From contig JAQIBN010000259.1 of NCBI GenBank assembly GCA_027859095.1, positions 1-49,392 on the forward strand: a DNA stretch of 49,392 nucleotides. Direction: 5' to 3'. Numbering within the stretch: position 1 is the stretch's first letter; every line of letters begins with the position of its first letter. The position numbers and the translations under genes were made by a program. Below are positions 3,821-7,484 of the stretch, one piece after another. The stretch comes from Spirochaetia bacterium (lineage in GTDB: Bacteria; Spirochaetota; Spirochaetia; B11-G9). The notes below the pieces were generated by a model that made no database searches, was not told the origin of the DNA, and saw only the letters and a program-made list of their open reading frames with translations.

Positions 3821-3823
3821 ATA

Positions 3824-3895
<72 letters not shown>

Positions 3896-3904
3896 ATATA
3901 AACC

Positions 3905-3977
3905 TGAGCCGCACAGGATTCGAACCTGTGACCCACGCCTTAAAAGGGCGTTGCTCTACCAACTGAGCTAGCGGCCC
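3905..3977 (-). tRNA. tRNA-Lys (UUU)
   Basis: A complete 73-nt cloverleaf: acceptor GGGCCGC paired with GCGGCTC, D arm AGCTCAGTTGGTAGAGC, anticodon stem ACGCC/GGCGT enclosing CTTTTAA (anticodon TTT), and T arm CAGGTTCGAATCCTG with discriminator A. CCA is not encoded. It is the first gene of the tRNA operon. Confidence 0.95.
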
Positions 3978-5879: not shown

Positions 5880-6042
5880 AATATAGCCCCCTGTTATATT
5901 ATCAGTTCGGTAAAACATATCTATACCTTTAGTCTATCACCTGTGGAGGAAATATCAAGAGGTGGAATAATAAAAGGTTTTGAAACAATATTTGGCAATT
6001 AATTCAATAACACCAATAATTTCAAATATTGTTGTTTTCCCC

Positions 6043-6324
6043 GTAGGTACGGGGCTTGCCCCCGTCCGATGTGTTCCATTAAAAACATCCCATTCCCCAT
6101 TGTTAACATGCGGTTGTTCATTATAAATATTCCGTAATCCATTAAAAATATCCGTTATTTTATCATTGTTGGATGTGTTCCATTATGGTTATTAAATTTT
6201 CCAACCATGAATGTATAATTTTTTACATGGATGCCCAATGTTTGGTTACGAATGCCCAATATTTAATCATGAACACCGAATATGGGGTTACGGATGCCCA
6301 CAAGGGGCGTCCCTACGTTGTTTT
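6043..6324. repeat. REP-bounded 21-bp minisatellite, unit C (~10 copies)
   Basis: Between a palindromic segment (CCCCGTAGGTACGGGGC, ~6043) and CCCACAAGGGGCGTCCCTACG (~6299) lies an uninterrupted array of degenerate 21-bp units, in phase from 6077 (6077, 6098, 6119, 6140, 6161, 6182, 6203, 6224, 6245, 6266). Typical units start CATT and carry AATATCC or GATGCCC. Read on the minus strand, the left flank resembles the linker of the adjacent transposase (TGKTTIFEIIG). It is a truncated, expanded copy of the transposase linker. The stretch from 5919 to ~5989 holds nothing I recognise. Confidence 0.75.
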
Positions 6325-6329
6325 TATTG

Positions 6330-6481
6330 TATAGGATTTGCGGTAATTGCCACAAACGTTTATAAAACCGTTGACAATTTGATTTTTTATACCATTTTAA
6401 ACCGATTTGTTGTAATTGATTTGAATGATTTCAAACAATGATGTTTTCCCCGTAGGGACGGGGCTTGTCCCCGTCCATTGT
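6330..6481 (-). pseudogene. Degenerate fragment of the RAYT transposase gene
   Basis: The stretch repeats, with an internal deletion and point changes, the part of the transposase gene at ~6690-6880. Shared text includes GGATTTGCG, TAATTGCCA.AAACG, ACCGATTTGTTGTAATTG and ATTTGAATG. On the minus strand it still reads KSITTNRF, matching KSITTNRY in the intact gene. It joins directly to unit B of the minisatellite and to unit C on the other side, so 5990-7294 is a nested series of related copies. Confidence 0.7.
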
Positions 6482-6660
6482 GATCCAATAAAAACATCCC
6501 ATTCCCCATTGTAAACATGCGGTTGTTCATTGTGAATATTCCGTAATCCATTAAAAATATCCGGTGTTTTATCATGGGTGTATGGGTTTCCATTTTTAAA
6601 TACCCAATTTTAACCATGAATTTGGTTGTGGATACCCACAAGGGGCATCCCTACGTTGTT
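6449..6660. repeat. REP-bounded 21-bp minisatellite, unit B (~7 copies)
   Basis: The segment is bounded by CCCCGTAGGGACGGGGC (~6449) and CCCACAAGGGGCATCCCTACG (~6635). Inside are seven in-phase 21-bp units (6486, 6507, 6528, 6549, 6570, 6591, 6612), the first four almost identical to units in the array at 6077-6160. On the minus strand they encode a 7-residue repeat: HRIFLMD, YGIFTMN, NRMFTMG, NGMFLLD. The shared anchors show that units B and C derive from one ancestor and differ in copy number. Confidence 0.78.
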
Positions 6661-6661
6661 T

Positions 6662-7294
6662 TCATCGTGTAGGGGGATGATAATTCATGGGATTTGCGAT
6701 AATATATTCCCTGATTCTGTTTAAATCATTTTCATTGCGTATTATGTGATCATGATATCGTAATTGCCATAAACGTTTGTCAAACCGTTGCCAATTGTTA
6801 TTTTTTACACCATTTACATACCGATTTGTTGTAATTGATTTGAATGCACCAATAATTTCAAATAATGTTTTTTCCCCCGATATCCCATTTTTAACATTTT
6901 TTGATCCATTAAAATGATCCGGTGCACCAGGGACGGACAATTTTTGGGGATGAATGCCCACAAGGGGCGTTCCTACATTGTTTTTGTTGCATGCGGGTTG
7001 GGTTTTATGGTGAACGGGTATTTTCCTGTTGGGTAATAATTGGATAATACCGTGGAAATGATCGGGCATGATGATGTATTTATCCAGAATTGCATGTGTG
7101 AACCTTTCAGGAATTTGTTTCCATTCCAAATCAACCATATTACCAACATCATTTAATTGAATTTTCCTATCCCTGATAACCCCAAATTTAATTCCCCGAT
7201 CCTGTGTTACTATTGTAAAAAAATAATATCCTGGCTGTGAATAATCATATCCGGTCAATCTAATGGAATAACGATTATATTTATAATCTACCAT
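6662..7294 (-). CDS. REP-associated tyrosine transposase (Y1_Tnp/RAYT family)
   Basis: A 210-residue HUH single-strand transposase of the IS200-like RAYT family, which cuts and moves REP palindromes. Visible features are the N-terminal RLTGYDYSQPGYYFFTIVTQ segment, the HUH motif HFH at residues 79-81 (MPDHFHGII), the catalytic Tyr candidate at residue 159 in GAFKSITTNRY, and the C-terminal signature RLWQLRYHDHIIRNE...EYIIANP. Length is normal. The linker at residues ~101-142 is itself encoded by a REP arm (NNVGTPLVGIHP) plus about four 21-bp units. Degenerate partial copies lie directly downstream. It appears intact; no flanking insertion ends are evident. Confidence 0.88.
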   Translation of the reverse strand: MVDYKYNRYSIRLTGYDYSQPGYYFFTIVTQDRGIKFGVIRDRKIQLNDVGNMVDLEWKQIPERFTHAILDKYIIMPDHFHGIIQLLPNRKIPVHHKTQPACNKNNVGTPLVGIHPQKLSVPGAPDHFNGSKNVKNGISGEKTLFEIIGAFKSITTNRYVNGVKNNNWQRFDKRLWQLRYHDHIIRNENDLNRIREYIIANPMNYHPPTR

Positions 7295-7453
7295 AAAGCG
7301 AAACCCCCAGAATTTACCAAACCAATAATTCCAAAATCAAAAATTGATCTAAATTAAATGTTAGTTATACTCCAGTACTGGGGATTTTCTGTTTATGCTT
7401 CAATATTAAATTGTGATATTGGTACAGCTGAATGGAAATTTCAGGTGATTCAT

Positions 7454-7484
7454 AAAAAAAGGCTGCTTTCAATAGAAAGCAGCC
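7454..7484 (-). terminator. Rho-independent terminator after the barrel gene
   Basis: A perfect 10-bp stem GGCTGCTTTC/GAAAGCAGCC with a 4-base loop, followed on the minus strand by seven T residues. It lies 23 bp past the stop of the gene ending at 7507 and separates cassette 2 from the transposase. The gap 7295-7453 shows nothing else. Confidence 0.9.

Follow-up and report, generated by a model that had tools for sequence, protein, structure and literature searches.

REP-associated tyrosine transposases (RAYTs) look domesticated, and how they relate to their own REP palindromes is still puzzling; the locus described here raises the question of how the linker inside such an enzyme comes to change its length. 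The locus lies in the window, by which we mean the whole stretch of DNA analysed, a contig of 49,392 nt from a 4.2-Mb Spirochaetia bacterium assembly in 314 contigs. An intact gene is followed, 3' of its stop codon, by two truncated copies arranged head to tail, and together they form a module at about 5989-7454 (no strand assigned). A sequence-only reading had proposed that the linker of the transposase can grow and shrink by 21-bp units and that it has left expanded, derelict copies downstream.

The module is extra DNA relative to an uninterrupted orthologous intergenic region in two congeners, G003 (L065) and G005 (L067), where window positions 7455/7449 are directly joined to 5988/5980. 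The nearest relative, G002, whose neighbouring gene encodes a protein 91% identical to that of the window, has no RAYT module at the orthologous site and carries only one perfect double-foot palindrome (GTAGGGGCAGGTCGCGACCTGCCCCTAC, at approximately L064:366-400), a REP of a sequence other than the window's. In G004, a nucleotidyltransferase (PF01909) and HepT-like (PF01934) pair, laid out as in MntA/HepT-type toxin-antitoxin systems, takes the place of the module (L066:396-1032). The module is absent from the orthologous site in these four congeners and is therefore either lineage-specific or repeatedly lost; the assemblies of all congeners are drafts, in 290-430 contigs each. A tRNA-Glu (ttc) and tRNA-Lys (ttt) pair lies at 3823-3977 of the window, on the minus strand.

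The intact gene (6662-7294, minus strand) encodes 210 aa and, judged by profiles, conserved residues and predicted fold, is a RAYT of the TnpA_REP type (Y1, HUH), as the sequence-only reading had recognised. Its protein matches Pfam Y1_Tnp (E=6.9e-5) and the PDB profile of TnpA_REP 4er8 (E=1.9e-9), while the best and only NCBIfam family is the REP-associated tyrosine transposase (E=2.6e-18, at 66 bits against a curated cut-off of 80), with the match broken into two parts by the linker. In a Foldseek comparison, the predicted fold resembled ISDra2/IS608 TnpA and 4er8 TnpA_REP (E 6e-6 to 7e-4), with TM-scores that are modest because the linker is disordered. The catalytic residues H79, H81 and Y197 are present, the last in the motif Y197-I-I-A-N-P, and the HuH motif H79-F-H81, W176-Q177, R186 and Y197 are conserved in alignments, two of which show H79, H81, W176 and Y197 to be invariant and Q177 nearly so. 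By spacing, W176-Q177, H183 and R186 correspond to positions tied to GTAG recognition, as these are defined for the TnpA_REP family in the text of Quentin et al. 2018 (PMC6006769).

Only 13 residues follow Y197, so that the protein has no C-terminal extension beyond the core, and the HuH-Tyr distance is 113 aa, within a range of 55-162 aa across 59 RAYT genes that we surveyed. These features make the locus most like subclass 2.4 of Quentin et al. 2018, equivalent to group 4 in the RAYT classification of Bertels et al. 2017 and with a median HuH-Tyr distance of 88 aa (PMC6006769). The motifs here are DHFH and YIIANP, compared to the subclass consensus NH[IFV]H and YIxNNP, forms that occur in many of the relatives.

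A variable linker (residues 91-140; 6875-7024, minus strand) joins the HuH part to helix C and is predicted to be unstructured: in the AlphaFold2 model it lacks secondary structure, and pLDDT falls below 50 exactly at these residues, compared to values above 80 over most of the core. Within the linker, between HuH and Tyr, lies a REP palindrome (GTAGGAACGCCCCTTGTGGGCATTC; 6952-6976, minus strand; two mismatches to the REP family pattern) that is read in frame as VGTPLVGIH, and the reading frame is open throughout.

This palindrome, which we call REP-R (GTAGGGAYGCCCCTTGTGGGCATCC), is common to all three segments and contains the right anchor described earlier (CCCACAAGGGGC.TYCCTAC., at 6297, 6635 and 6957). 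On the minus strand, it occupies 6630-6654 in copy 2 and 6292-6316 in copy 3, both found with the REP family pattern, the latter being identical to a dispersed copy at G000:C165. The left anchor, GTAGGGACGGGG, had been taken as common to all three segments but occurs in copies 2 and 3 only and is missing from the gene. The two anchors had also been called REP arms; they are two different GTAG-type REP palindromes rather than two arms of one, inverted relative to each other with their GTAG feet outside. The second, REP-L, lies on the plus strand, at 6452-6476 in copy 2 (GTAGGGACGGGGCTTGTCCCCGTCC; hairpin -10.2 kcal/mol, z -4.5) and at 6043-6067 in copy 3 (two mismatches; hairpin -7.3 kcal/mol). 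REP-R belongs to a small family, with four further sites in this genome compared to none for reversed-pattern controls, and one or two copies with at most two mismatches in each of G001, G002 and G011, while among 12 genomes REP-L was found only in copies 2 and 3 of this locus. Dispersed REP-R copies of the same genome lie in intergenic clusters with several unrelated GTAG palindromes (L010:1430-1560 and L011:1440-1610).

The sequence-only reading was borne out in placing derelict copies with longer linkers downstream of the gene, as shown by alignment of both copies to it. Copy 2 (6318-6660, minus strand; delimited by alignment, translation and flank BLAST) starts 3 nt past the end of the gene's ORF and consists of REP-R, the linker and a truncated C-terminal half. 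In the RAYT frame it reads NNVGMPLVGIHNQIHG*NWVFKNGNPYTHDKTPDIFNGLRNIHNEQPHVYNGEWDVFIGSQWTGTSPVPTGKTSLFEII, which aligns to NNVGTPLVGIHPQKLSVPGAPDHFNGSKNVKNGISGEKTLFEII of the gene, and its damage comprises a stop codon within the linker, the deletion of 8 nt following FEII and one more stop. The heptads YGIFTMN and NRMFTMG, offered earlier as the linker repeats, belong to a shifted frame; the RAYT frame of copy 2 gives DIFNGLR-NIHNEQP-HVYNGEW, homologous to DHFNGSK-NVKNGIS of the gene. Copy 3 (about 5988-6317, minus strand; from alignment) consists of REP-R, a longer linker and the start of the C-terminal half; it carries stops and a frameshift, and its similarity stops at the border with the flanking locus. 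Positions 6424-6588 and 6015-6179 are 88% identical across 165 nt, matching points of copies 2 and 3 are spaced 409-419 nt apart, head to tail, and the copies diverge by 12-20%. From REP to REP, copy 2 measures 203 nt and copy 3 measures 274 nt, a difference of 71 (3 x 21 + 8) that is a multiple of neither 21 nor 3. On alignment, the derelicts appear to be truncated tandem duplications of the unit "REP + linker + C-terminal half" rather than copies of the linker alone.

Both derelict linkers have a 21-bp period, which we measured as lag-21 identity against 1000 dinucleotide shuffles. Copy 3 (6069-6296) reached 0.498 compared to 0.280 (sd 0.034) in shuffles, and copy 2 (6477-6634, minus strand) reached 0.460 compared to 0.273; none of the 1000 shuffles matched either value, and 4/1000 matched copy 2 when the best of all lags was allowed. 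The copy 2 array holds about seven units, the number first proposed. The 21-bp series had also been extended to the intact gene, as about four units, and there it did not stand: lag-21 identity in the gene linker (6873-6956) was 0.333 compared to 0.247 in shuffles, a value reached by 105/1000 of them and not significant. The homology of the gene linker to the derelict arrays is visible by alignment alone, and the unit profile slid along it gave a weak match (p 0.02-0.07).

Copy 3, described earlier as one in-phase series of units, holds two blocks. Block A (6216-6299, minus strand) is REP-proximal and comprises four 21-bp units in the unit table, three of which open with the REP-R 3' arm (GGGCATYC) and two of which match at 17/21 positions. 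Block B (6069-6152, minus strand) is distal and comprises four 21-bp units that, by segment alignment and unit comparison, are common to copy 2. That the two blocks form a single unit family is unproven (rotation test, p = 0.50). The folding of the REP-array-REP strand gave z = -3.4 for copy 3 and z = -1.8 for copy 2, with no array structure common to both evident from folding. Arrays beside dispersed REP-R copies (L102, L103, L104 and L107) showed no period 21; their best lag identities, 0.42-0.46, fell at unrelated lags and over short stretches.

We surveyed 59 RAYT genes, mostly from Spirochaetota, and found tandem repeats in 17/59 linkers compared to 2/59 N-terminal core stretches of equal length (p = 2.5e-4), with a score threshold that was picked after seeing the data, genes that are phylogenetically non-independent and linker borders set by pattern. 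At a stricter score, the counts were 10 linkers and no core stretches. The linker repeat periods were multiples of 3 in all 17 cases, and hairpins occurred in 47 linkers compared to 22 core stretches. Among the 16 linkers with both an array and a palindrome, the array touches the palindrome in 15 (6.8 expected, P = 1e-5), and a palindrome arm lies within the array in 11/17 (5.2 expected, P = 0.002). Together, these findings support the linker as a preferred site of in-frame tandem repeats in relatives.

Individual loci bring the arms and units together. The 21-bp units of L075 contain the REP arm TGCCCCTAC, the 24-bp units of L074 contain ATTTTTCGCCCC, and the 18-bp GTAGAGACGCACGGTCCY units of L031 adjoin the REP GTAGAGACGCAAAATCTTGCGTCTCTAC. 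The L031 gene has four REP-arm units while a truncated copy directly behind it has five, the extra one being an exact 18-bp unit and the rest near-identical, and this is the cleanest evidence of unit number differing between adjacent copies; such differences were observed between paralogous segments only, namely copies 2 and 3 of the window and L031. In the intact gene L110, six units of 18 bp fill the space between a pair of inverted REPs, an arrangement that copies 2 and 3 share.

Linker-derived DNA also recurs behind RAYT genes. It lies in direct orientation within 500 nt downstream at 12/59 loci, compared to 1-2/59 for core sequence (p = 0.002-0.008). L045 repeats 69 bp at 97% from the ORF end onward, and L033 has a 37-bp REP-plus-duplicated-arm downstream at 100%. 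The 3-nt gap between ORF end and copy 2 in the window fits this layout of linker copies behind the stop codon. In RAYTs of Clostridia / Oscillospiraceae MAGs (L020, L021 and L022), GTAG-palindrome-like peptides, VGAPIGRP and SGRPMGAPT, sit in two distinct loops of the protein, which looks like an inverted REP pair divided between two parts of the gene.

We consider it probable that the module arose in two steps, a REP-flanked tandem duplication followed by tandem duplication of linker units bounded by a REP arm. Here a candidate cognate GTAG palindrome lies in frame in the predicted disordered HuH-Tyr loop, and a second copy of this REP follows in direct orientation just past the stop codon. 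Duplication or deletion of the C-terminal half by slippage or recombination requires such direct REP repeats on either side of it and would yield a unit of about 415 nt; in the first step, an exchange of this kind between the REP in the linker and the one downstream would have duplicated "REP + linker + C-terminal half" to give the truncated copies 2 and 3. In the second step, linker units bounded by the arm of the REP hairpin would multiply in tandem, with replication slippage at the hairpin as the probable cause. Changes in multiples of 3 would survive while the gene is translated, and after truncation the copies would decay, leaving degenerate 21-bp arrays of different length between inverted REPs. 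In vitro, the TnpA_REP of E. coli cleaves at CT dinucleotides on the 5' or 3' side of a REP and can join strands (PMC8266576), and by analogy the enzyme may possibly take part in changing its own linker. Three observations count against the two-step origin: repeats in the intact gene fall short of significance, blocks A and B could not be shown to form one unit family, and the derelict linkers differ by 71 nt.

A bolder form of this proposal, which we rate as unlikely though conceivable, is that the REP of a RAYT acts as a length-changing device. The hairpin arms, perhaps nicked by the HUH enzyme, would seed in-frame units, exchange with the REP past the stop codon would swap or duplicate the C-terminal half, and the enzyme would thereby drive the fast evolution of its own linker. 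If linker repeats do grow from REP arms in frame, the REP would be both substrate and mutational engine of the gene, which would explain the large variability of HuH-Tyr spacing in subclass 2.4 and would offer a case, open to testing at the bench, in which a hairpin seeds changes in protein length.

The alternative that survives best, to which we give a little less than an even chance, reverses the direction of change. In this case, the ancestral linker was long and held both REPs and the array, the derelicts keep that state, and the gene has been shortened in frame by 69 nt, REP-L among them, and by a further 36 nt or so. Consistent with a contraction, REP-L is missing from the gene linker and falls, on alignment, within a 69-nt in-frame gap relative to sequence present in both copies 2 and 3; the net length differences between copy 2 and the gene are multiples of 3, and the linker of copy 2 stays in the RAYT frame except for one stop. 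On the other hand, block A lies beside the REP of copy 3 and is absent from the other two copies, which is most simply a gain. The first idea of a growing and shrinking linker thus holds in part: the in-frame repeats of relatives and the one-unit difference at L031 speak for it, but the linker of the intact gene has no significant period and may have shrunk.

Separate insertions offer another route to copies 2 and 3, which would then be a REPIN-like non-autonomous element mobilised by the RAYT rather than tandem duplications of the 3' half. Each copy does have the layout of a REP dimer or REPIN, with two inverted REPs and GTAG feet outside; L111 (G109:C1:529300-530600), in a genome held in two contigs, carries in its linker an in-frame REPIN-like element made up of two inverted REPs, with two similar copies in the 320 nt or so downstream of the gene; and the strand cutting and joining of the E. 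coli enzyme would supply the activity. However, copies 2 and 3 hold C-terminal coding sequence beyond the REPs and follow each other head to tail at the spacing given above, and a DNA search of the genome with 5980-7020 returned two short REP matches elsewhere and no second array of this kind, which makes the insertion reading improbable.

The period itself could have arisen by chance or from the base composition of AT-rich, decaying DNA. Tandem Repeats Finder, the type of tool suggested earlier, was run on the window and reported no period-21 array in 5990-7294, down to a score of 30; the units are too degenerate for it, being alike at a mean of only 7-9/21 positions. Since no shuffle reproduced the period of either derelict, lag 42 is high too, and copies 2 and 3 are the strongest lag-21 stretches in the whole 49-kb window, chance is disfavoured for the derelicts and overall very improbable, although it still holds for the gene's own linker. 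An assembly artefact, in the form of collapsed or chimeric metagenome repeats, is least credible of all: the source assembly has many contigs, and contig ends lie close to the neighbouring gene in G002 and G005, but the copies diverge too far to be assembly duplicates, synteny on both sides agrees with congeners, and L111 shows the same kind of downstream linker copies. We accordingly retain the two-step origin as the preferred reading of the module.

Rickettsia palindromic elements (RPEs) insert into unrelated genes and are not known to have a cognate transposase or arrays. They share with the present locus palindromes that are carried in frame within genes (as cited in PMC3733652). REPs of the GTAG class and those within genes (Di Nocera et al. 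2013, PMC3733652) come closer: they have a palindrome with a GTAG foot at its 5' side, inverted dimers whose GTAG ends face outward and a position within coding regions. At the present locus, it is the RAYT that hosts the REP, and a tandem array fills the spacer between the two REPs. REPINs (Bertels and Rainey 2011, PMC3116915) likewise consist of two inverted REPs and a spacer near a RAYT; copies 2 and 3 differ in that they contain remnants of coding sequence and arrays of 150-230 nt and have no dispersed counterparts in the genome.

The nearest known system is subclass 2.4, for which the main text of Quentin et al. 2018 (PMC6006769) describes in-frame REPs between HuH and Tyr and a highly variable insertion domain with short repeats found by MEME. 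The locus shares with it an HUH-Tyr core without a C-terminal extension, a long and variable HuH-Tyr distance, an in-frame REP, short repeats in the variable domain and GTAG-type REPs around the gene, while we found no description there of a pair of truncated copies in tandem behind the gene that hold degenerate arrays of 21-bp units between inverted REPs. Linker variation by short repeats and in-frame REPs is thus already published there; relative to that account, our survey puts numbers on the link between arrays and REP arms, on periods in multiples of a codon and on linker copies past the end of the gene. We conclude that the locus is probably an ordinary member of subclass 2.4 and that it gives a clearer view of how RAYT linkers may change length.
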